NCBI RefSeq assembly: GCF_024494685.1
Contig: NZ_JANHDM010000004.1
Coordinates: 1-64,000 of the forward strand
Length of the DNA: 64,000 nucleotides
Source of the DNA: Halorubrum rubrum
GTDB taxonomy: Archaea > Halobacteriota > Halobacteria > Halobacteriales > Haloferacaceae
Reading direction: 5' to 3'
In this document: in pieces, positions 14,058-40,540 of the stretch
Layout of the letters: every line of letters starts with the position of its first letter
Numbering within the stretch: the first letter of the stretch is position 1
Notes under the pieces: model-generated
Told to the model about the DNA's origin: nothing
The model's input: only the letters and a program-made list of their open reading frames with translations
Databases searched by the model: none
Program-made: the position numbers and the translations under genes

Positions 14058-15683
14058 TCAGTGTTCTCCGCCCGTGCCGCGCCGATCGGAGTCGAGATCG
14101 ATGTCGAGCCCCTCGAGGACCTCCTCCGCCTCCTCGCGTTTCTCCTGGTGTTCCGCGAGGAACTCGCGCATGAGTTCGGCCGCCTGCTCCTTACAGCCGC
14201 CACAGAGGCGCTCGCCGTTCACGCACTCGGAGTACACCTCGGTCGCGAGGCCGTCGTCGTCGCCCGCGAGCAGGTAGGCGTACAGCTCGTAGACGGGGCA
14301 CTCGTCGGCCTCGCCGCCGAGTTCGCGCTGCTCCTCGGCCGTGTCGCGTCCCCCGGTCGTCGCCGACCGCACCTTGTCGTAGCCGTCCTCGGGGTCGTCC
14401 AGAAGCGAGATGTGGCTCGCGGGGATCGACGAGGACATCTTCCCGCCGGTGAGCCCGGTCATGAAGCGGTGGTAGATCGAGGAGGGCTGCCGGAAGCCGA
14501 AGCCGTCGTGGTCGATCTCCACCTCCCGCGCCAGCGACTCGGCCGCCTCCCGCGTCATCTCGAACGCGTCGACGTGGCCCTCGAAGACGCGCTTTTCTCC
14601 CTGTACCGCCCCGATCAGCGCCTCGAACGCCTCGTCGGTGGCGTTGCGGTCGAAAAAGCGGACGCGCGGTCGGAGCGGCTCCTTGCCGCCGGCCCGGAGC
14701 TTGTCGAGGGCGCTCGCCTTGGCGGCCTCGAGGTCGACCTCCTCGGCGTCGACCGCCGGCGGCTCGTAGTCGGCGAGCCACTCGGCGGCGTCCTCACAGC
14801 GCACGTCGTCGGCGTCACGGTTGACGGCCTCACCGTCGTCGTCGCTTCCGTCGCCCGCCAGCGCGTCGTAGGCCGCCCGCACCAAGGTCCGCTCCGCGTC
14901 GTCGAGCTCGAAGCTCGCGAACGCCTCGGTCACCTTGAAGTACCGGAGCCGGGTCGCGAGGTCGCGCGTCAGCCGGACGTGCGGGTCCTGGTCGGGGCCG
15001 ACCGGGATCACGGTGGGTTTCGGCTCGTCGACCAGCTGCGGGTAGAGGATGTCCGCGGTCTGGGTGACGACGCTCTGCATGTGCGAGATGTTCGTCTCGC
15101 CGTCGAAGCCGTAGATCGCCTCGAACTCCGAGAAGTTCGCCTTCGACCCCAGCTCGAACCCGAGGTCCTGGACCTCGCGGTTGTCGGACTGCCGGTAGAG
15201 CTCGCCCGCCTCGGGGTCGAACCCGAGCGCGAGCAGCGAGAGGAGGTAGCTCCGGGCGTGCTCGTCGATCTCGTCCCACGACATCCCGCGGGCCGAGTGG
15301 GCCTCCAGGTCGGCGATCAGCCCGAACACGTCGCCGCCCCGCCGTTGGTGCCAGATCAGCTCGTCGAACACGAGCTTGTGGCCGATGTGCGGGTCGCCGG
15401 TGGGCATGAACCCCGAGAGCGCGGCGAACGGCTCGTCGTTCGCCATCGCCTCGGCGACCGCGTCGTACTCGCGGTGGCCGAAGATGACGCCGCGGCGCAT
15501 CAGGTAGTGCGGGTCGACCACGTCGTCGGCGACGTCGTCGAACGCCTCGATGCCGAACTCGGCGAACAGGTCGGCGTAGTCGCCGACCGACGCCGACCCC
15601 CACGGGTCGAGCGCGACGTCCTCGCTCGGCTCGCCGTCGGCGCGCTCGGTCCCGCCGTCCGTGCGGGGGGTGTCCTCGTCCAT
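14058..15683 (-). CDS. trpS: Tryptophanyl-tRNA synthetase
   Basis: The 541-aa class I synthetase charges tRNA-Trp. The start at 15683 (MDEDTPRTDGG) is preferred; an upstream extension to 15776 lacks family similarity and would run towards endA. Motifs: HIGH-type GDPHIGHK near residue 96, VIPVGPDQDPH, and KMSSS near 415, with the archaeal-type C-terminal CVNGERLCGGCKEQAAELMREF. The N-terminal acidic tail and an inserted acidic segment (about residues 285-325) make it longer than many archaeal homologs. It is downstream of endA on the same strand, 123 bp apart, a pairing common in haloarchaea. Confidence 0.93.
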   Translation of the reverse strand: MDEDTPRTDGGTERADGEPSEDVALDPWGSASVGDYADLFAEFGIEAFDDVADDVVDPHYLMRRGVIFGHREYDAVAEAMANDEPFAALSGFMPTGDPHIGHKLVFDELIWHQRRGGDVFGLIADLEAHSARGMSWDEIDEHARSYLLSLLALGFDPEAGELYRQSDNREVQDLGFELGSKANFSEFEAIYGFDGETNISHMQSVVTQTADILYPQLVDEPKPTVIPVGPDQDPHVRLTRDLATRLRYFKVTEAFASFELDDAERTLVRAAYDALAGDGSDDDGEAVNRDADDVRCEDAAEWLADYEPPAVDAEEVDLEAAKASALDKLRAGGKEPLRPRVRFFDRNATDEAFEALIGAVQGEKRVFEGHVDAFEMTREAAESLAREVEIDHDGFGFRQPSSIYHRFMTGLTGGKMSSSIPASHISLLDDPEDGYDKVRSATTGGRDTAEEQRELGGEADECPVYELYAYLLAGDDDGLATEVYSECVNGERLCGGCKEQAAELMREFLAEHQEKREEAEEVLEGLDIDLDSDRRGTGGEH

Positions 15684-15806
15684 ACCTCCCCTCCCGTCGG
15701 TCGACGCAAAAACCGTTCGCTTGCGCGGGAGCGGCTCGCGGGCGGGTCGGGACGACGCCCGCGCGTCGCTACCCACCGACCCGCGCGCGCCGGCGCTCCC
15801 CCGACC

Positions 15807-16946
15807 TCACGGCGTCAGCCGCCCCACCGAGAGCCACTCGATCCCGGCGTCGGACCCCCCGCCGGCCGCGCCGTCGTCGACCAGCGCGAACAGCAGCTCC
15901 TTGCGGACGCCGCCGGCGAGCCGCACGTCGAGCGAGAGCTCGCGCGGCGCGAACGCGTGGTCGGGAGCGATCACCCGCACGAGGTGTTCGGAGTGCGGGA
16001 GGTCCTCGACCGTCTCCACGTCGAGGTACGTCCGGAAGTCCGCGCCGAACTTGAACCCCGTCTTGGGAACCGCCCGGCGCTCGCGGAGGTCGCGGTAGGC
16101 GGCGAGCCGGCGGTCGAACCGGTCGCCCTCGACGGCGCGGCCGCGGGCGACGACCGCGGCCGCGGCGCTCGCGGACTCCTCGTCCGCGTCCCGTCCGCCG
16201 TCGTCGACGACCTCGGAGAGACTGAGGCTCCCGTCGGCCGCGAGCGACGCGGCCTCGACGAGCGAGAGCTGGACGATCCCCTCGACGGCGGCCGCCCGCC
16301 CAGTCAGCGGCTGGCCGTAGAACCCGCGCTCGTAGAGGTCGGGCGGCGCGCCCCAGACGGCGACGCGGTCGGAGAGGAGGACGCCGGTCAGGTCGTCGGG
16401 CGGGTCGTAGTCGGTCGAGCCCGCCAGGTCCGGACGACCGGCCTCGAAGTAGGTGATGTCGCTCTCCTCGTCGACGACGGCGAGGGTCTGGCCGGCCACG
16501 CCGGCGGCGGGGACCGACTCGCGTTCGCCCACGACGCGCACCAGGTAGCGGACGTCCCCGGCGTCCGGCGTCGACCCGCGCTCGTAGGCGACGACGTCGA
16601 CGGCGTCGGGCACGTCCGCCCGGCCGCCCGGCCACGGCTCGCGGGCGGGAGAGAGGTAGAACCCGCGGTCGCGGAGGTCGGCGTAGACGAGGTAGCGCAC
16701 CGCGAAGCGGTCGGTCGCGGCGGCGCTGTCGACGAAGAACCGCTCGAACCCGACGGGGTCGGCGCCGGACGCGAGACGAACCCCGGCGAGGTCGCCGCGG
16801 AACAGCAGGTGGGCGGTCTCGACCCGCGAGAGCTCGATCGCGTTCCCGCCCACCGGCCGACCGTAGCCGCGCGAGTCGTAGAACCGCTGTCTGGCGTCCC
16901 CGCCGACGTGGACGGCGTCGCCGCGGAGGTCGCCTGTCGGTTGCAT
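15807..16946 (-). CDS. endA: tRNA-splicing endonuclease
   Basis: The enzyme cuts introns from archaeal precursor tRNAs at bulge-helix-bulge motifs. The 379-aa length fits the fused two-repeat form that acts as a homodimer. The C-terminal repeat shows the likely catalytic triad: tyrosine in FGADFRTYL, histidine in HSEHLVRV and lysine in GGVRKELLFA. The N-terminal repeat has a FFVDSAAATDRFAVRYLVYADLRDRGF segment lacking that triad. I chose the ATG at 16946 because MQPTGDLRGDAVHVGG begins the conserved part. Confidence 0.92.
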   Translation of the reverse strand: MQPTGDLRGDAVHVGGDARQRFYDSRGYGRPVGGNAIELSRVETAHLLFRGDLAGVRLASGADPVGFERFFVDSAAATDRFAVRYLVYADLRDRGFYLSPAREPWPGGRADVPDAVDVVAYERGSTPDAGDVRYLVRVVGERESVPAAGVAGQTLAVVDEESDITYFEAGRPDLAGSTDYDPPDDLTGVLLSDRVAVWGAPPDLYERGFYGQPLTGRAAAVEGIVQLSLVEAASLAADGSLSLSEVVDDGGRDADEESASAAAAVVARGRAVEGDRFDRRLAAYRDLRERRAVPKTGFKFGADFRTYLDVETVEDLPHSEHLVRVIAPDHAFAPRELSLDVRLAGGVRKELLFALVDDGAAGGGSDAGIEWLSVGRLTP

Positions 16947-31651: not shown

Positions 31652-34600
31652 ATGACAAACGAAACAAACACACGCAAGAAGGCTAGCGCGGTCTTCTTCA
31701 GCCTGGTCATGGTACTCTCCGTGACTGCGGTTGGCTTCGCTGGCTTTGCCGGGTCCGCAGCGGCCCTCGGAGCCAACGACGGCTATGTCGATATTGATGG
31801 AGACCAAGTCCAAGGAAGTGTCGTCTTCCAGGGTCAGAACGTCTACCTCGTCGGTGACTCGGTAGACTCCGCGTATAACGACGACTCTGTAAGCAATACT
31901 GTCAACCTGCGTCGGGCTACTAACTACGACGATGAAGGTGACACAGTCACAAACAGCCAGCAGGTCGAGCAGCTTGAGATCGAAGAGTTAACCGAGGACT
32001 TCCCGCAGGATGTGCGAGATGCAGCTAATGCGGGCGATGCTGTCGTCGAGATCGACACGGACGATCTCGAAGCTGACGACTACTTCGTCCGTGGTGCCGG
32101 AGATCTCGCGACGAACCCTGAGCAGAGTGAAACCTTCGAGGTCACGGTACAGGACCTCTCCACTGAGTTCGACGACGAGGAAGTCACTGACGAAGGTTCG
32201 AACGCAGTGACCGAGCTCGACATCAGCTCCGACCGTGGAGCGTACTCGATGAACGCGAGTGCTGACGGCGATCTCAGTGAAACGGAACTCGTTAACCTCT
32301 TCGTTACTGGTGAGAACGTGGATGTTAACGATGATGGGTACATTACTGACGAGTTCGACGCAGACGAGGAAGTCACTGTACAGGATGTCCGTGACTACCT
32401 CATCGCTGCGCGTGATAAGGTGTCTGTCGACGACGCTGGTAACCCGGTTCTTGAGAACCCTGACGAAGAAATCGAAGTTGACGACGAAGATACCGGTGTC
32501 ACCCTGACCGAACTCGTCGAAACGGATGCTAATCCGTTCGGTGTTGTCGCGTACAATACCGACGAGGAAGATGCTGACGAGCAGGTCGCTCTGTATAATC
32601 AGGGCGACACCGCCCAGGACGTCTCGTTCAATGGCGTCGACACGGACGAGTACGAGTTCACCTTCGAAGTCGGTGACACCGAAGCAGAGGACAGCGCGTC
32701 CATCACGGTGAACGAGCAAGACACGACCGGTGACTTCAGTCAGGGTGTCTACACCCAGGCTGCGGGTGACATCGCGAACATGACGCTCGAGCTCGAAGAC
32801 ACCGACGACGCGTACGTCCAGATCGGTGACGAAGAATCCGGATTCATCGATGTCCTCTACGTGGAGGACGACGACGATGACGGCGAAGTCACCTTCCAGG
32901 TCAACACCCGGACGCTCGGTACCAGTGCCGACTACGATGATGTCTACGACTCTGAAGAGGACATCGTCGAGAGTGAGATCCACTCTGATGGTGGACTTGG
33001 GGACGATGCGCCCGTCTACCAGGACGAGGACGAAAACCTCCTCGGCGATGAGGGCAACTTCAACGACTACCTCAACGAGTTGGATCTGATCGATGATGAG
33101 GAAGACGGAACGGACCAGCTGGTCCGGCCGCTCCAGCCCACGAACTACGAGGTTGCTGCGAACGGGAACGACGTCTTCATCGTGAACGACGACGAGGAAT
33201 CCGAGCTCGACAACGAGGTCGACCTCGCGACGCTCGAACTGACGGAGCCCGGCGTCGGCGACATCCAGACGTGGACGGCCCCGTCCGGGAACGCTGACGA
33301 CGACACCGAGCTTCAGGACGTTCTCGACACCGTGAACGAGACGGACGAGATCGCCGAGGATGACCGCCTGGTCATTCAGGCCGAGGCGAACGGTATCTAC
33401 GGCCACATGGTCCAGATCGAGGACTTCGACGCGCTCGACGACGGGTTCAGCGCGGGCACCCTCGACGAGATCGACACCCGCACGGGTGAAGGTGTGAACA
33501 TCGAGATCGAGGCCGACGACGCGACCGGAAACCAGGACGCGACATCGCTCAATCTCGCTGACGCATCTGAGAACGACATCCTCGTGCTCGTCGACAACGA
33601 GAACGGGCAGATGTACATCATCGCGGACACGAGTTCCAGCGGCACCTTCGACGGCGACCTCGATCCGGACGCCGAGTTCACGGCCGAGATCGAGTACGAG
33701 GGTGACGAGGACAATCGGTTCGAATTCGATGAGGACGGTAACGGTATCCTCGGTGGAGCTGGCGGCGACCAAGACGAGGCTGCCTTCCCGTACTTCCCGG
33801 CCGAGGACGACGTGACGCAGACGTCGACGGCCGAGTTCACGATCGCCGACCGCGACGCGACCTTCGACAACGTCGACGGTGACGAAGTCCAGGTCGCACT
33901 CGGCGAGGAATCCACCGTCAGCGGCATGACGAACGTTGCACCCGGCTCGGACGCCAGCGTGCGCATCCAGTCCGATGAGGGCGTCACGCCCTCGTTCGTC
34001 GAAACGACTGACGTCGAGATCAACGAGGACGGCGAGTTCAGCGGCGAGTTCGACGTGAGCGCTCAGTCCGTCAACGACACGGGCGAGGTCAGCTTCCGTG
34101 TCGCCGGTAGCTCCATCGCCGACTCGGACATGCGGATCGTCGAGACGGTCGGCGAGCCCGCTAACTTCGAAGTCTCCGACCTCGACCCGCAGGACGTGAC
34201 CGTCACGCAGGGTGACGCGATCGACGTCTCCGCGACGATCGAGAACACCGGCGAGAACTCGGCCACGCAGACGGTCGAGTTCCAGGTCGACGGTGACGCG
34301 GTCGCCGATCAGGACGTCGAGCTCGACGGCGGCGAGGACACCACGGTCGAGTTCACGGACATCGACACGTCCAGTCTCGACCCCGGTGACTACGAGCACG
34401 GCGTCTTCACCGACGACGACAGCCAGACGGCCACGCTGACGGTCGAAGAGGCTGACGACGGCGGTGACGACGACGGTGAGACCGACGACGGCGAAACCGA
34501 CGACGGCGAGACTGACGACGGCGAGACCGACGACGGCGAGACCGACGACGGTGAGGCCGACGACGGTGAGGCCGACGACGGTGAGGCCGACGACGGCGAA

Positions 34601-34723
34601 GCCGACGACGGTGAAGGTGACGACGGTGAGGAGACCGACGACAGCACGCCCGGCTTCGGCGCGCTCGTCGCTCTCGTCGCCCTCGTCGCCGCTGCCCTGC
34701 TCGCGACGCGGCGTCGCGACTAA
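31652..34723 (+). CDS. csg: S-layer glycoprotein with PGF-CTERM anchor
   Basis: The 1023-aa protein forms the cell wall. It has a signal peptide (about 1-38, RKKASAVFFSLVMVLSVTAVGF), an S-layer N-terminal domain starting GYVDIDGDQVQGSVVFQGQNVY, very acidic beta-rich domains, and several NxS/T sites for N-glycosylation. A CARDB-like domain (about 825-925) is followed by a repeat of DDGE(T/A) units and the tail TPGFGALVALVALVAAALLA plus RRRD, cut and lipidated by archaeosortase. The acidic repeat replaces the threonine-rich O-glycosylated stalk of Haloferax. The first third is noticeably less GC-rich than the end. Confidence 0.92.
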   Translation: MTNETNTRKKASAVFFSLVMVLSVTAVGFAGFAGSAAALGANDGYVDIDGDQVQGSVVFQGQNVYLVGDSVDSAYNDDSVSNTVNLRRATNYDDEGDTVTNSQQVEQLEIEELTEDFPQDVRDAANAGDAVVEIDTDDLEADDYFVRGAGDLATNPEQSETFEVTVQDLSTEFDDEEVTDEGSNAVTELDISSDRGAYSMNASADGDLSETELVNLFVTGENVDVNDDGYITDEFDADEEVTVQDVRDYLIAARDKVSVDDAGNPVLENPDEEIEVDDEDTGVTLTELVETDANPFGVVAYNTDEEDADEQVALYNQGDTAQDVSFNGVDTDEYEFTFEVGDTEAEDSASITVNEQDTTGDFSQGVYTQAAGDIANMTLELEDTDDAYVQIGDEESGFIDVLYVEDDDDDGEVTFQVNTRTLGTSADYDDVYDSEEDIVESEIHSDGGLGDDAPVYQDEDENLLGDEGNFNDYLNELDLIDDEEDGTDQLVRPLQPTNYEVAANGNDVFIVNDDEESELDNEVDLATLELTEPGVGDIQTWTAPSGNADDDTELQDVLDTVNETDEIAEDDRLVIQAEANGIYGHMVQIEDFDALDDGFSAGTLDEIDTRTGEGVNIEIEADDATGNQDATSLNLADASENDILVLVDNENGQMYIIADTSSSGTFDGDLDPDAEFTAEIEYEGDEDNRFEFDEDGNGILGGAGGDQDEAAFPYFPAEDDVTQTSTAEFTIADRDATFDNVDGDEVQVALGEESTVSGMTNVAPGSDASVRIQSDEGVTPSFVETTDVEINEDGEFSGEFDVSAQSVNDTGEVSFRVAGSSIADSDMRIVETVGEPANFEVSDLDPQDVTVTQGDAIDVSATIENTGENSATQTVEFQVDGDAVADQDVELDGGEDTTVEFTDIDTSSLDPGDYEHGVFTDDDSQTATLTVEEADDGGDDDGETDDGETDDGETDDGETDDGETDDGEADDGEADDGEADDGEADDGEGDDGEETDDSTPGFGALVALVALVAAALLATRRRD
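34468..34641 (+). repeat. 15-bp tandem repeats coding DDGE(T/A) stalk
   Basis: About eleven units of GACGACGGYGARRCC encode the pentapeptide DDGET or DDGEA just before the PGF-CTERM tail of the S-layer protein. The units vary at third codon positions. Being in frame, the array can change length by slippage or recombination without breaking the gene. Confidence 0.85.
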
Positions 34724-34862: not shown

Positions 34863-34891
34863 CCTATGTGTGTGTAGGATCTACACATAGG
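34863..34891. promoter_or_regulatory. Palindromic operator in front of the VapBC-like pair
   Basis: CCTATGTGT and ACACATAGG form 9-bp arms around an inner perfect palindrome TGTGTAG-GAT-CTACACA (34871-34887). The site ends 3 bp before the ATG at 34895, so a bound repressor would block the start of translation or transcription. Toxin-antitoxin operons are usually controlled this way by their own antitoxin. Confidence 0.65.
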
Positions 34892-34894
34892 CCG

Positions 34895-35290
34895 ATGGCC
34901 GAAGAAAAAACTCGCGTCGATTTCAACGCCCCGAAATCCCTCATCGAACGGGCCGACAGCGTCGTCGAGATCCTCGACGTTTCACGGACGCGCCTCCTCA
35001 TCGATGCCCTCGAGGAGGAACTCGAAGCGCTCGCGAACGACGAGAAGTTCCGCCGGCGTCTCGGTGACGCCTACTACGACGGCCGCGTCGACTACGAGAC
35101 CGTCGAAACGGTTCTCGGCCGTGAGGAAGCACTCCGAATGAAGCTCCTCCGCGAATCGATCGATCGGACTCCTCTTGAGCCTCGACTCGAAGACGATCTC
35201 CCGAGTGACGATGCCTTCTACGACGGCGAGATCCCGGAATGGACGGATTCTGCCTCGTCCGAATCTTCGGACGACGAGTCGCACGCCTGA
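34895..35290 (+). CDS. Ribbon-helix-helix antitoxin-like protein
   Basis: The 131-aa protein has an N-terminal segment RVDFNAPKSLIERADSVVEILDVSRTRLLIDAL that fits a ribbon-helix-helix DNA-binding fold, then a long acidic C-terminal region (about 55-131) that could wrap a toxin. I chose the ATG at 34895 because the one at 34868 lies inside the palindromic operator. It ends 2 bp before the PIN-domain gene. Pairing, operator and spacing together point to a VapB-type antitoxin; the family is not otherwise identified. Confidence 0.75.
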   Translation: MAEEKTRVDFNAPKSLIERADSVVEILDVSRTRLLIDALEEELEALANDEKFRRRLGDAYYDGRVDYETVETVLGREEALRMKLLRESIDRTPLEPRLEDDLPSDDAFYDGEIPEWTDSASSESSDDESHA

Positions 35291-35292
35291 GG

Positions 35293-35853
35293 ATGCCGGA
35301 GAAAGCCGTCGCCGTCGTCGACACCAACGTGTTGTTGAATCTGGCGCTCCCCGTCGTTGACCGCCGTCCGAGGGCACCGTCCGGAGCGGATCCCCTCAAA
35401 ACACTCCTCACCGCGTACGACGTTCACGTTCCCGCAAGCGTCCTCGGCGAACTCACCGATGCGACGGGGAGCGGTGACCTGCTGTCTGTAGCTGCCGACC
35501 TCGTGTTCCAGGCAGCACACCATCTGACGACCCACGACGTCGACGATCGAGTCGACGATCCGCTCGATTACGGCCTCGATCGCGGGGAGTCCGACTGTAT
35601 CTGGCTGGCTAACGAGTTGGAGGCGGGTCTGTTCATCACCGACGAGTTCAACACGACCAACTACCTCCTCGTCACCCTCGCGCTCGACGATCGGAACGTC
35701 CTCTTCACGACGCCGCACGTCCTCTGTACGTTCGCGACTCGGGAGATTCTCCCCCTCGAATACGTTTCGGCCGCACTCACATACTATGTCGAGACCAAGG
35801 GATGGGACGCACAATACATCGATCGGCTTCGACGGCAGCATCTCGAGGATTGA
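35293..35853 (+). CDS. PIN-domain toxin-like protein (VapC-like)
   Basis: The 186-aa protein has PIN-fold acidic residues: aspartate in VAVVDTNVLLNLAL (about residue 10), glutamate in ASVLGELTDA, and acidic residues in RGESDCIWLANE and LFITDEFNTTNY. It is somewhat longer than standard VapC, with a C-terminal extension (about 140-186). Its substrate RNA is unknown. It starts 2 bp after the antitoxin-like gene, which supports joint expression. Confidence 0.75.
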   Translation: MPEKAVAVVDTNVLLNLALPVVDRRPRAPSGADPLKTLLTAYDVHVPASVLGELTDATGSGDLLSVAADLVFQAAHHLTTHDVDDRVDDPLDYGLDRGESDCIWLANELEAGLFITDEFNTTNYLLVTLALDDRNVLFTTPHVLCTFATREILPLEYVSAALTYYVETKGWDAQYIDRLRRQHLED

Positions 35854-35937: not shown

Positions 35938-36384
35938 CTACTCCACCGGAACCCGGAGGTCCGCGACGCGGCGCGCGCGATAGAACCGCACGTACCGGGT
36001 CGCGATCCGCCAGGCGACGACCGCGAGGCCGGCGCCGGAGGCGTTGGTGAGGACGTCGCCGTAGGTCGCGTAGCGGCCCGAAAGCGTCGACTGGAGCAGC
36101 TCGATCCCGGCCCCGTAGGCGGCGACCGCGAGGAAGACGAGCGCGAGCACTTGCCAGTCGGGTCGGGGCGTGTCGTGGAGGGTGTACGCGAACGTGGCTG
36201 CGAGCCCGCCGTACGCGAGCAGGTGAAGCCAGGTGGAGTAGCCGAGCAGTCCGAAGGGGCCGGTGCGGAAGGTGCCGCTGCCCGGCGCGGGCACGACCGA
36301 GTAGAGGAGGATGACGAGCGCGACGAGCGCGACCGCGGCCCAGCGGACGCCCCGCGGGATCAACGGCAGCCGGATCCGAGCCAT
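35938..36384 (-). CDS. VanZ family membrane protein
   Basis: The 148-aa protein has four membrane helices (about 13-30, 48-66, 76-93 and 112-128) and the family motifs WLHLLAYGGLAATFAY and AGIELLQSTLSGRYATYGDVLTNASGAG. VanZ domains are linked to cell-surface or phospholipid functions, but no activity is proven in archaea. It is divergent from the STT3-like gene with 123 bp between starts and may belong to the same glycan-related group. Confidence 0.85.
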   Translation of the reverse strand: MARIRLPLIPRGVRWAAVALVALVILLYSVVPAPGSGTFRTGPFGLLGYSTWLHLLAYGGLAATFAYTLHDTPRPDWQVLALVFLAVAAYGAGIELLQSTLSGRYATYGDVLTNASGAGLAVVAWRIATRYVRFYRARRVADLRVPVE

Positions 36385-36507
36385 GTACGCCCGGTGGCGG
36401 AGGCGTCGACCTAAAACGTCCGATCCCGAGACGCGAGTCGGGACGAGCGGGCGGTGAACGCGGCGACAACGGAGGGTTTTACCCGATCGCCCGCACAGGG
36501 TCGGGTA

Positions 36508-39000
36508 ATGGCGGACCCGCACGCGGCGGCGCGGGAGCTCCTCGAGGAGCGACCGGCGGTCGAGTCGGCGCTCGAAGCGGTCCTCGCGGCGGACGAGTCC
36601 GGACCGTGGGCGTTCGACGACGTCGACGTCGACTCCGGCACCTTCGGCGAGCTGGTCTCGCGAGGGATCGTCGAGCGCGATGGTGACGAGTACCAGGTGG
36701 CCGATCGGGACGCGGTCCGGGCCGCGCTGGATGGGGAGACGGACCCGTCCGGCGGCTCCGGCGTGGGAAACGCGGCTGGATCGGGTGGACTCACGGACGC
36801 GGTGACCGGACTCGGCGGTGCCGGAGACGGGACGATCCGCGGGGCGCTCCGCGGCTGGCGCGCGGCGATTCATCGCGATCTGCTCGGCGGCTTGTTCGCG
36901 TCGTTCCTCTTTTTGCTCGCGTTTCGGGTCGTCACGGTCGGGAGCGTGTTCCGGGGCGGTCGCGTCGTGTTGCCCGGCAACGACCCGTACCACTACCTCT
37001 ACTGGGTCGAGCGGCTGGCCGAGGCCGACCCCGACCGCTTCGCGTTCGAGGCCATCGCCGGGGTGCTTGGTGGACGCGTGAACGGCGAGCCGCTCGCGTA
37101 CACGCTCGGCTGGTGGATGACGGAGTTCCTCGGCGGCGGGGCCGAGGGGGCCGCGGCGATCGTGGCGTGGATCCCCGTGATCGCGGCGCTCGTCGTCGGA
37201 CTCGGCGTCTACCTGATCGCGGTCTGGACGACGAACGACGAGCGCATCGCGGTGGCCTCCGTCGTCGTCCTCGCGTTGCTTCCCGGACACGCGCTCTACT
37301 CGGGGATCGGCTTCTTCGATCACCACGCGATCGACTACGTCTGGCTCACGCTCTCCATCGTCGGCGTGACGTGGCTCGCACGGGACCACGAGACGCGCGA
37401 CCCGGGCGCGCGCCTCGACCACCTCGCCTCGCCGGCGACGTGGGGGGTGGTCGCCGGGCTCGCGGTCGTCTTCGCCGCGATGGCACACCACTGGAACGGA
37501 TCGCCGATCCTCCTCGTCGGGCTCGCCGTGTACGCGACGCTGCGGGCGGCCTCGGACATGCGGGCCGGGTGGAACCCGCTCGTCGCCGCCACGCCCGTCG
37601 TGAGCGCGCTCGGATTCGGGTTTCTGCTCGCTCACCGGCTCCACACCGCCGCCGGGTGGCAGGAGCCGGTCGCGGTGTACGCGCCGCTTCTGGTCGCGGT
37701 CGGCGTGGCGCTGGTCGCGGTCGCTGCGGCCGTCCTCGGACACTTCGGGATACATCCGGGAGTTCATCTCGCTCTCTCGGCAGTCAGCGTCCTCCCGATC
37801 TGGTTCGGGCTGAACCGGTTCCTTCCGGACGTGGCCGACCGGCTGGCGGAGCGGACGGTCGGGTCGCTCCTCGGACGCGAGGGAATAACCGAGACGCGGA
37901 GCCTCTTCGCGGCCGACTACGGCGTGATCTTCGGACCGATCGACCACTTCGGCTGGTTCCTCTTCGTGGCGCTGCCCGTGCTCGCGTGGGTCGCAGGACG
38001 GTGCGTGCGCGACCACGAGCCACGGTGGCTCGTGGTCGTCGGCTACGCCTCGACGCTCGTCGGCTTCGGGCTCGTTCAGATCCGCTTCGCGGGCGAGGCG
38101 ACGGCCGTCGTCGCGGTGCTCTCCGGCGTGGGGATCGTCTACCTGCTGTCAGTCATCGACCTGGCGGCGCGGCCGACGCCCTTCGGGGAGCGATCCGATC
38201 GAGTCCGGCTCGACCTCCGTCCCGAAGGCGTCTCCGGGCGTGACGTCGGCTACGCCGCGGCGACCGTGCTGTTGGTCGCCAGCCTGAGCCTCTTCATGGT
38301 GCCGGCGGTGATGGACAACGTCGCCGCGACCGACGAAGAGGTGGAGGCGATCGAGTGGATCGACGCCGACGCCGACGAGCGCGAGGGCCCCGACTACGTC
38401 CTGAACGAGTGGGGCCGAAACCGGATGTTCAACTACGCGGTGAACGGCCAGTCGAGCTCCTACGGCTACGCACAGAGCAACTACGAGCCGCTCATCCGCG
38501 ATCCGAATCCGGACGCCCACGCCGATCGGTTCCAAGGACGAGTGGGATACGTGGCGATCTCCGAGATCGAGGACGCCGACGCGCCCCCCGACTCCGGATA
38601 CGCCCAGCTGTTCGAGGCGCGCGGCAGCGCCACCGCGGCGGCGAACGGCTCCGGGCGCTTCCGGCTGGAGTACGTCACCGACGACGGCGGAATCAACGTG
38701 TTTCGGCCCGTGAGCGGCGCGACGGTCGCCGGCCAGGCCGAGCCGGACTCGACGGTGACGGTCGAAACGACCGTCTCCGTTGCCGGCGAATCGTTCGCCT
38801 ACGAGCGGCGGACGACGACGGACGGAAACGGGAGCTACGCGGTCGTCGTCGCCCATCCCGGCGAGTACACGGTCGAGGTCGGTGAGGGGTCCGACGAGGA
38901 CGGAGCCGCGGCCGGGAACGGAACCACGACCGGCAACCGGACGGTAGCCGTACCCGAAGGAGCGGTCTCCGGCGGCGAGCGCGTCGCGGTCGACGGCTGA
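36508..39000 (+). CDS. STT3/AglB-like membrane protein with an altered catalytic motif
   Basis: The 830-aa protein resembles the oligosaccharyltransferase STT3 family: about a dozen membrane helices, a first-loop acidic motif GNDPYHYLYWVERL (about 156) and GIGFFDHHAIDYVWL (about 265). The WWDYG site that binds the acceptor sequon is replaced by VLNEWGRNRMFNYAVNG (about 630). Two extra parts stand out: an N-terminal winged-helix-like domain (about 1-80) and a C-terminal carboxypeptidase-regulatory-like domain (about 735-800). It may transfer a sugar to another acceptor, or may have lost activity. Confidence 0.75.
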   Translation: MADPHAAARELLEERPAVESALEAVLAADESGPWAFDDVDVDSGTFGELVSRGIVERDGDEYQVADRDAVRAALDGETDPSGGSGVGNAAGSGGLTDAVTGLGGAGDGTIRGALRGWRAAIHRDLLGGLFASFLFLLAFRVVTVGSVFRGGRVVLPGNDPYHYLYWVERLAEADPDRFAFEAIAGVLGGRVNGEPLAYTLGWWMTEFLGGGAEGAAAIVAWIPVIAALVVGLGVYLIAVWTTNDERIAVASVVVLALLPGHALYSGIGFFDHHAIDYVWLTLSIVGVTWLARDHETRDPGARLDHLASPATWGVVAGLAVVFAAMAHHWNGSPILLVGLAVYATLRAASDMRAGWNPLVAATPVVSALGFGFLLAHRLHTAAGWQEPVAVYAPLLVAVGVALVAVAAAVLGHFGIHPGVHLALSAVSVLPIWFGLNRFLPDVADRLAERTVGSLLGREGITETRSLFAADYGVIFGPIDHFGWFLFVALPVLAWVAGRCVRDHEPRWLVVVGYASTLVGFGLVQIRFAGEATAVVAVLSGVGIVYLLSVIDLAARPTPFGERSDRVRLDLRPEGVSGRDVGYAAATVLLVASLSLFMVPAVMDNVAATDEEVEAIEWIDADADEREGPDYVLNEWGRNRMFNYAVNGQSSSYGYAQSNYEPLIRDPNPDAHADRFQGRVGYVAISEIEDADAPPDSGYAQLFEARGSATAAANGSGRFRLEYVTDDGGINVFRPVSGATVAGQAEPDSTVTVETTVSVAGESFAYERRTTTDGNGSYAVVVAHPGEYTVEVGEGSDEDGAAAGNGTTTGNRTVAVPEGAVSGGERVAVDG

Positions 39001-39100: not shown

Positions 39101-39124
39101 CATTTCGGCCGGTACGTGTCGGCG

Positions 39125-40540
39125 ATGCTCTCCGGATGGCGGTATCGGCTTGAAAGCGTCGCGGGCGTCGCGGCGTTGACCGCGGTCGCGGTCGCGGTCG
39201 CGAACAGCGTGGCCGTTCACGCGCTGTTGGGCCGGCTTCCGGTCGTCGGCCGGCTGGCGGCGGACGCGCCGATGGGCGCAGAGCTGATCTTCGAGGTCGT
39301 CACGACGGTCGTCGTCGTCACCGCGGCGTTCGTGCCGCTGTACAAGCCGCGCCCGCGGCGCATCCTCGATACCGTCGCGCTCGTACAGAAGCGGGTCATG
39401 GTCGCGATGTTCGCGCTCGCGGCCGTGGGCTACTTCGATTACACCTACCGACTCCCACGAACGACGCTCATCGCGATCACGCCGGTGCTGCTCGTCGTCC
39501 TCCCCGCGTGGTTCGTGTGGATCCGCCGCCGGCCGACCGCCGAGACGGATCGGGTGATCGTCGTCGGTGACGACCCCGCGGAGATCGAGCGGCTCGCCGG
39601 CGACGTGGACCTCCCTCTCCTCGGATACCTCTGTCCGACGAGTTCGATCGACGCGGTCGCGGGATCGGAGGAATCGCGTGCGATCGCGACCGCAGTCGCG
39701 GACGGTGGGGGTCGGATCCGAGAATTGGACCGGCTCGGTGGACTCTCTCGGATCGAGGACGTGCTCGTCGAGTACGACGTGGACACGGCGGTGCTCGCCT
39801 TCGAGCACACCGACCGCGCGGAGTTCTTCGGCGCGCTCGACGCGTGTTATGAACACGGCGTCGCGGCGAAGGTCCACCGCGAGCACGCCGACCGGGTGTT
39901 GACCGCGGACGACGACGTGGGGACGCTCGTCGACGTCGACATCGAGCCGTGGGACGTTCAAGACCACGTCCTGAAACGCGGATTCGACGTGGCGTTCTCG
40001 CTGGTCGGACTGGTCGCGTTGAGTCCGGTCATCGTGGCGATCGCGGCCGCGATCAAGCTGGACGACGGCGGATCGATCCTCTACAGCCAGGAACGGACGG
40101 CAGTGTTCGGCGAGACGTTCGACGTGTACAAGTTCCGGTCGATGATTCCGGAAAGCGAGTCGGTCGAACCGGTCGACGACGAGTCGAACGACCGGATCAC
40201 GCGGGTGGGCCGGTTCCTTCGACAGACGCACCTCGATGAGATCCCGCAGCTGTGGTCGATCCTCGTCGGCGACATGAGCGTGGTCGGTCCGCGGGCGGTA
40301 TGGACCGACGAGGAGTCGCTTCTGGAGGCACAGGAGCGATCCTGGCGCAAACGGTGGTTCGTCAAGCCCGGCTTGACCGGATTGGCCCAAGTGAACGGCG
40401 CGAAAAGCACCGAACCGGAGGAGAAGCTGCGGTATGACCTCCAGTACGTGAAACGCCAGTCGTTCTCGTACGACATGAAACTCGTCACCCGTCAGATATG
40501 GAAGGTTGGTGCGGACGTGGTCGAGACGATACGCGAGTGA
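39125..40540 (+). CDS. Polyprenyl-phosphate sugar phosphotransferase (bacterial sugar transferase family)
   Basis: The enzyme would start glycan assembly by moving a sugar-1-phosphate onto the polyprenyl phosphate made after UppS. The 471-aa protein has four N-terminal helices (about 10-135), a Rossmann-like nucleotide domain (about 145-255, VIVVGDDPAEIERLAG), then the catalytic domain: KRGFDVAFSLVGL (about 285), VYKFRSM and PELESV-type PESESVEP, RFLRQTHLDEIPQLWSILVGDMSVVGPR (about 360-385) and KPGLTGLAQVNG. All family signatures are intact. It follows the STT3-like gene after 124 bp. Confidence 0.9.
   Translation: MLSGWRYRLESVAGVAALTAVAVAVANSVAVHALLGRLPVVGRLAADAPMGAELIFEVVTTVVVVTAAFVPLYKPRPRRILDTVALVQKRVMVAMFALAAVGYFDYTYRLPRTTLIAITPVLLVVLPAWFVWIRRRPTAETDRVIVVGDDPAEIERLAGDVDLPLLGYLCPTSSIDAVAGSEESRAIATAVADGGGRIRELDRLGGLSRIEDVLVEYDVDTAVLAFEHTDRAEFFGALDACYEHGVAAKVHREHADRVLTADDDVGTLVDVDIEPWDVQDHVLKRGFDVAFSLVGLVALSPVIVAIAAAIKLDDGGSILYSQERTAVFGETFDVYKFRSMIPESESVEPVDDESNDRITRVGRFLRQTHLDEIPQLWSILVGDMSVVGPRAVWTDEESLLEAQERSWRKRWFVKPGLTGLAQVNGAKSTEPEEKLRYDLQYVKRQSFSYDMKLVTRQIWKVGADVVETIRE

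Follow-up and report, generated by a model that had tools for sequence, protein, structure and literature searches.

The window is a stretch of 64,000 nucleotides from Halorubrum rubrum (contig NZ_JANHDM010000004.1, positions 1 to 64,000 of the forward strand), part of a 3.23 Mb assembly in 25 contigs. At 36508..39000, on the forward strand, it encodes a protein of 830 amino acids starting from the ATG at 36508, in a frame that the open-reading-frame tool extends upstream to a GTG at 36454. The product is an STT3/AglB-like GT-C protein without the WWDYG motif, and we refer to it and its family as STT3x. A VanZ-like membrane protein lies divergently on the reverse strand (35938..36384; PF04892, 31.1 bits against a cut-off of 30.1). 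Downstream, on the same strand as STT3x, lies a polyprenyl/dolichyl-phosphate glycosylphosphotransferase, hereafter PGT (39116..40540), matched by PF02397 at 194.9 bits and by TIGR03025 at 269 bits, below the cut-off of the latter. Both Pfam matches, PF02397 being the bacterial-type sugar transferase model, agree with the preliminary description of this DNA, which had placed the gene between VanZ and a sugar-phosphate transferase. By homology, PGT is predicted to catalyze the first step in making a pyrophosphate-linked glycan donor.

Upstream on the forward strand is an S-layer-type surface glycoprotein with a PGF-CTERM (31652..34723; BGTF surface domain model NF045517, 71.4 bits; PGF_CTERM, 48.3 bits), which we propose as the acceptor. 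Assuming signal cleavage, its predicted mature N-terminus reads LGANDG, with an Asn codon at 31775..31777 that stands outside any N-x-S/T sequon.

Placement in the STT3 superfamily

Several searches place STT3x near oligosaccharyltransferases, at scores below those of ordinary family members. The NCBIfam model TIGR04154 (archaeo_STT3) matches it with an E-value of 4.6e-47 and 160.9 bits, under the 450-bit cut-off, and the Pfam STT3 model PF02516 reaches 23.6 bits, just under its cut-off of 24.5. The solved AfAglB is matched at E 9.9e-6 with the single sequence and at 1.3e-10 with the family profile, and a profile–profile comparison with haloarchaeal AglB gives a probability of 99.9% and E 3.9e-34 over the membrane core. 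Judged by these sequence and profile matches, the GT-C membrane core of STT3x is homologous to the STT3/AglB/PglB superfamily, as first described, and nothing in them points to a placement outside STT3. An AglB of the ordinary, WWDYG-bearing kind sits on the same contig (141187-144045; TIGR04154, 919.6 bits), and STT3x is therefore a paralogue. AlphaFold models of STT3x, for which the input was limited to seven sequences, were poor (pLDDT of 48.8 for the whole protein and 46.4 for its C-terminal part), with the P1 beta domain alone modeled moderately well. In a literature search that covered few subscription papers, we found no paper giving the family a function.

Catalytic residues and the replacement of WWDYG

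We counted motif residues in an alignment of 58 STT3x proteins from many haloarchaeal genera; a separate alignment paired Halorubrum STT3x proteins with the AglB of the Halorubrum rubrum genome. The residues expected of a working transferase are kept (coordinates on the forward strand throughout). In the first acidic motif, GNDPYHY (residues 157-163; 36976..36996), N158, D159, and Y161 are invariant in all 58 sequences. The second acidic motif, GFFDHH (residues 268-273; 37309..37326), has H272 in 58 of 58, while the D271 column holds Asp in 47, Glu in 10, and His in one. A TIXE-like motif, GITET (residues 459-463; 37882..37896), carries E462 in 57 of 58; this residue aligns with the TIGE of AglB in the profile–profile comparison, and the Thr-Ile part of TIXE is lost. 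Arg526 of QxRF (38083..38085) and the adjacent F527 are each found in every sequence. The preliminary description had stated that the first acidic and the lipid-linked donor motifs remain, and the conservation of N158, D159, and E462 supports it.

The place of WWDYG, by contrast with AglB, is taken by DYVLNEWGRNRMFNYAVNGQ (residues 629-648; 38392..38451), in which V631, R639, and N642 are present in 58 of 58 sequences and W635 and G647 in 57 each. The column of WWDYG reads NEWGRNR in the Halorubrum rubrum protein, just as had been noted from the sequence, and WWDYG occurs nowhere else in the alignment (0/58). Where AglB has S-W-W-D-Y-G-H-W-I, STT3x has S-x-W-G-x-N-R-x-Y-N, and the signature conserved across haloarchaea can be written V-[LF]-S-x-W-G-x-N-R-x-Y-N, with counts among the 58 of S 52, W 57, G 45, N 51, R 58, Y 49, and N 58. 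Conserved as it is across genera, the replacement appears from the alignment to be more than a chance substitution. The profile–profile alignment with AglB stops short of the soluble domain, and the equivalence of the two motifs is drawn from the multiple alignment and from location, because there is no local profile match at that place. The DK/MI region belongs to a soluble domain too short and too diverged in STT3x for confident alignment.

In oligosaccharyltransferases, WWDYG and DK/MI have been described as forming the pocket for the sequon Ser/Thr (PMC8342417). The catalytic residues are kept and the motif that reads the sequon is swapped; therefore, a non-sequon acceptor is supported, and this part of the original suggestion stands. 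The loss of WWDYG and the divergence of the sequence could also mean that STT3x has lost catalysis or plays a regulatory part, for instance as a partner of AglB. Such a role seems very improbable given the near invariance of the metal-binding and TIXE-type residues among the 58 proteins, the conservation of the new motif, and the strong co-occurrence of STT3x with the donor-making enzyme PGT.

Terminal domains

The extra N-terminal domain, about residues 1-95 (36508..36792), is absent from the AglB of the same genome in the alignment, and none of the Pfam models matches it. Its homologues are the N-termini of EMC3/TMCO1-like proteins of haloarchaea: the ~95 residues match the start of a protein of 304 residues encoded in the same genome, and the rest of that protein is EMC3/TMCO1-like (PF01956). 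All 15 Haloferax genomes also encode the domain, in proteins of about the same length, and phmmer matches to four Haloferax proteins and the Halorubrum one fell between 5e-9 and 1.5e-7, values that refer to a tiny database.

At the other end, the soluble domain of STT3x is far shorter than that of AglB and terminates in an AglB_L1 (P1) peripheral beta domain (38716..38985; PF18079, 30.9 bits, cut-off 23.6). Archaeal AglB normally carries this long peripheral domain, and it is also found in the ordinary AglB of Halorubrum rubrum. Of the two end domains that the preliminary description regarded as additions, the N-terminal one is thus a true extra, and the "regulatory-like" C-terminal beta domain is rejected as an addition, being a normal AglB_L1 scoring above cut-off and present in ordinary AglB too.

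Distribution and gene neighborhood

STT3x is widespread in haloarchaea. With a threshold of E <= 1e-20, 183 of the 342 Halobacteriales genomes searched have a match, as do 57 of 89 genera. In Halorubrum, a row count gives 25 of 52 genomes with a family member (the raw tally of 36 also took in genomes where only AglB or only the N-terminal domain matched). In these data, the start codon of predicted genes is written as M, and split or stop-bearing copies, such as that of L035, were kept unmended. The 35 pattern matches on viral contigs included no relative. The family is missing from all 15 Haloferax genomes, where only matches to the end domains were seen, in other proteins and at E 1e-8 or weaker. 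This bears on the low-salt (Agl15) pathway of Haloferax volcanii: its transferase is reported as not known in the available parts of two papers (PMC8241124, PMC3871713), and STT3x might in principle supply it. We reject that identification, whose probability is close to nil, because Haloferax lacks the family.

We surveyed the neighborhood of 49 STT3x loci, taken as one to several per genus with 11 from Halorubrum, out to a distance of about 9 kb. At least one glycan gene, a class from which DUF4330 and VanZ were excluded, lies nearby in 45 of the 49. PGT is the most frequent neighbor (25 loci), followed by a GlmU-like gene (22), an NAD-dependent epimerase (20), GT4 (11), GlmS and UDP-sugar dehydrogenase (10 each), and a BacA/UppP-like gene (5); DUF4330 and VanZ are found at 14 and 11 loci, respectively. 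S-layer-type genes are close to STT3x in most Halorubrum loci. The tie to PGT extends beyond adjacency: among the 342 genomes, and with kinship ignored, a PGT homologue is present in 176 of 183 genomes with STT3x vs. 44 of 159 without it.

STT3x may transfer or ligate its pyrophosphate-linked glycan onto an acceptor other than a protein, such as an exopolysaccharide or glycolipid, so that its link to the S-layer would be indirect. PGT resembles enzymes that initiate exopolysaccharides (TIGR03025), the neighbors are general glycan genes, and WWDYG is lost, all of which would fit. We regard this reading as rather unlikely, since it leaves unexplained the S-layer neighbors, the association with an N-terminal Asn, and the copy linked to csg in Halobacterium salinarum, both described below. 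The lipid or polysaccharide acceptors named in the preliminary description are less well supported than the S-layer, in view of the same S-layer, PGT, and N-terminal Asn links.

Asparagine at the N-terminus of S-layer-type proteins

An early Asn was first spotted by eye in S-layer proteins encoded near STT3x. We compared these with S-layer-type proteins of Halorubrum genomes lacking STT3x and then made the same comparison in genera outside Halorubrum, using mature N-termini predicted by rule, with signal cleavage assumed. In Halorubrum, Asn occurs within the first six residues of 27 of 31 proteins from genomes with STT3x vs. 8 of 28 from genomes without it (p 4.8e-6); by genome, the counts are 25/25 and 8/21. 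All 19 proteins labeled as adjacent to STT3x, i.e., within about 9 kb, have the early Asn. The Halorubrum set comprised 63 loci, of which L199, L200, L176, L193, L208, and L214 were unparsed, with L199 and a second copy in L218 later restored; the counts for genomes without STT3x leave out six of 27 (G016, G020, G021, G034, and G043, unsampled, and G023, unparsed).

The test outside Halorubrum was set down beforehand and run on 79 parsed proteins (five of 84 loci, L138, L251, L253, L296, and L305, were unparsed); relative to the rule set beforehand, the coded cleavage rule had a hydrophobic-core condition added and one polar-residue condition dropped. Here, Asn is found in the first six residues of 34 of 42 proteins with STT3x vs. 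13 of 37 without it (p 3.6e-5), and in the first three residues of 27 of 42 vs. 4 of 37. Under the rules applied, the early Asn is missing from eight of the 42 STT3x-positive proteins outside Halorubrum and from four of the 31 within it. Across the 20 amino acids, Asn alone differs in the same direction, as an enrichment, in both sets (p < 0.01); Thr is lower in STT3x-positive proteins outside Halorubrum only. The commonest place of the early Asn is position 2 (27/61).

Kinship accounts for some of this pattern. When STT3x status was permuted within genera for all 138 proteins, none of 20,000 permutations reached the observed count; outside Halorubrum alone, the family-stratified p is 5e-5 and the genus-stratified p only 0.015, and common descent thus explains part of the signal. 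Such lineage effects, and the frequent adjacency of S-layer and STT3x genes in Halorubrum, would be expected if STT3x modified the S-layer elsewhere, at ordinary sequons or at O-linked Thr, and the N-terminal Asn were a trait of co-travelling S-layer lineages. This explanation appears unlikely to us: the association holds in proteins of STT3x-positive genomes for which no proximity to STT3x is known (29/37 vs. 13/37 in STT3x-negative ones, with the position of STT3x unlisted for about seven of the former 37), and the sequon content at the N-terminal Asn is that of the background, with 16 of 61 early Asn within N-x-S/T and likewise 16 of 61 Asn further downstream.

The Asn-2 glycan of Halobacterium salinarum

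The glycan on Asn-2 of the H. salinarum S-layer protein is among the earliest N-glycans known outside eukaryotes. Genome G110, which we take to be H. salinarum (its bacteriorhodopsin is 100% identical over 249 aa to the query sequence), has a full-length STT3x at G110:C1:932302-934617 (E 5.6e-168), matched by TIGR04154 at 141.1 bits and PF02516 at 29.4 bits, with an AglB_L1 domain at 22.2 bits, just below the cut-off of 23.6. Downstream of csg (TIGR04216, 1181 bits), STT3x follows after a gap of 3.3 kb that contains two other frames, and it is itself followed by GlmS, a pair of archaeal GlmU-type genes, and PGT, in that order. Under the usual cleavage, the S-layer protein of G110 begins A-N-A-D; therefore, the strain retains Asn-2 without a sequon.

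Asn-2 carries a repeating-unit glycan built on dolichol pyrophosphate, and its addition is blocked by bacitracin (PMC2952790). Replacing Ser-4 by Val, Leu, or Asn did not abolish the Asn-2 glycan, as summarized in the same review. The glycan is linked via N-acetylgalactosamine (PMC8674786). In the portions available to us, the 2010 review states that a suitable explanation was lacking for how a single cell attaches two glycans drawn from different types of carrier, one of them without need of the sequon Ser, and that a single oligosaccharyltransferase gene had been found (PMC2952790), and later papers still treat the enzyme as unsettled (PMC6591318, from 2019; PMC3871713).

Proposed function

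Taken together, these observations lead us to propose, with a probability of roughly 0.58, that STT3x is a second, sequon-relaxed oligosaccharyltransferase that transfers a dolichyl-pyrophosphate-linked glycan, started by PGT, to an Asn at or near the N-terminus of the S-layer glycoprotein. PGT would start the glycan on the dolichyl-pyrophosphate carrier; STT3x would receive it from that carrier and, as an active enzyme, attach it outside the cell through an N-linkage to an Asn at or near the N-terminus of the freshly made S-layer protein. The pyrophosphate nature of the donor is predicted from the homology of PGT alone. A second oligosaccharyltransferase is the simplest account because of the PGT partner, the BacA/UppP-like gene in some loci, and the N-terminal Asn acceptors free of a sequon. 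Because the WWDYG pocket is replaced, we propose that STT3x has no need of Ser/Thr at +2; the W-G-x-N-R-x-Y-N motif may instead read something else, such as the chain end. The H. salinarum STT3x would then be the missing enzyme for the repeating-unit glycan on Asn-2.

A more specific version of this proposal, which we put forward as a tentative possibility, holds that STT3x reads the fresh N-terminus in place of a sequon, that it glycosylates an Asn among the first residues past the signal cleavage site while W-G-x-N-R-x-Y-N holds the chain end, that its N-terminal domain docks at the ribosome or translocon, and that it is the missing Asn-2 transferase of H. salinarum, spread over half of the sampled haloarchaea. 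The domain, presumably cytosolic and common to EMC3/TMCO1-type insertases, might by such docking let the N-terminus be modified during export.

In Halorubrum lacusprofundi, deletion of the ordinary aglB strongly lowers staining of the S-layer glycoprotein (PMC10384203), and therefore most of the staining there needs no second enzyme. For Haloarcula, the published glycans are one trisaccharide and one disaccharide (PMC9943897).

Comparison with known systems

STT3x has in common with archaeal AglB the GT-C core, the first acidic motif, the DHH region, the TIXE-type Glu, the Arg of QxRF, and AglB_L1. Unlike AglB, it has no WWDYG in any of the 58 sequences, a signature of its own, a shorter soluble domain, and an extra N-terminal domain, and unlike ordinary haloarchaeal AglB, it scores 161 bits against the 450-bit cut-off of TIGR04154. 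If the proposed function is correct, STT3x would represent a naturally occurring oligosaccharyltransferase not bound by the N-x-S/T rule, relevant to both mechanism and glycoengineering, and would explain why surveys built on ordinary AglB count a single enzyme.

With the EMC3/TMCO1-like (PF01956) insertase, STT3x has only the ~95-residue N-terminal domain in common, the rest being unrelated. The AglB/Agl15 system of Haloferax volcanii likewise serves N-glycosylation of a haloarchaeal S-layer, with the Agl15 glycan passing from dolichol phosphate to Asn-498 (PMC3871713), but in a genus without STT3x (0/15).

The closest parallel is the Asn-2 system of H. salinarum. Reviews, in the parts available, count one oligosaccharyltransferase gene there, and the literature found does not tie the activity to the STT3x gene. 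A dolichyl-pyrophosphate donor, an N-terminal Asn of the S-layer as acceptor, and a dispensable Ser at +2 mark the Asn-2 system and are predicted for STT3x, which in H. salinarum has csg, GlmS, GlmU, and PGT genes nearby. For the enzyme that attaches the second of these glycans without a sequon Ser, the STT3x gene near csg is a candidate.

Genomic neighborhood of STT3x

Across the 49 STT3x loci, a DUF4330 protein (14/49) and an unnamed membrane protein (11/49) are encoded near STT3x, frequently adjoin each other, and may be part of the STT3x pathway. BacA/UppP-like genes accompany STT3x at five of the 49 loci (e.g., at 15237–16064 of the related locus L032), fitting a pyrophosphate-linked donor.

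In the window, an overlapping pair of small genes (34868–35290 and 35239–35853) adjoins the S-layer gene and was taken by eye as a toxin–antitoxin-like (PIN-type) candidate; a family search with the second frame (35239–35853) gave no match above the cut-off. Farther downstream, between 60000 and 64000, G+C content drops from ~70% to 41% at the window end, a possible integrated element.

Possible rearrangement and domain architecture of STT3x

Halorubrum halodurans carries an N-terminal STT3x fragment of 40 residues, with 88% identity (L004:5422–5541, equivalent to 50338–50457 of contig C10 in genome G013), upstream of an S-layer fragment, and this arrangement suggests past recombination in the S-layer/STT3x cassette. 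Searching Halobacteriales genomes identified some with two full-length STT3x copies (G230, G348, G366, and G188, the last with three stops within one copy), and the gene is split at locus L035 (genome G038).

A haloarchaeal EMC3/TMCO1-like protein (L022:2534–3448, − strand) begins with a domain homologous to the N-terminal domain of STT3x (36508–36792, + strand); the presence of this domain in both proteins hints at a common part that would dock to the ribosome or translocon.
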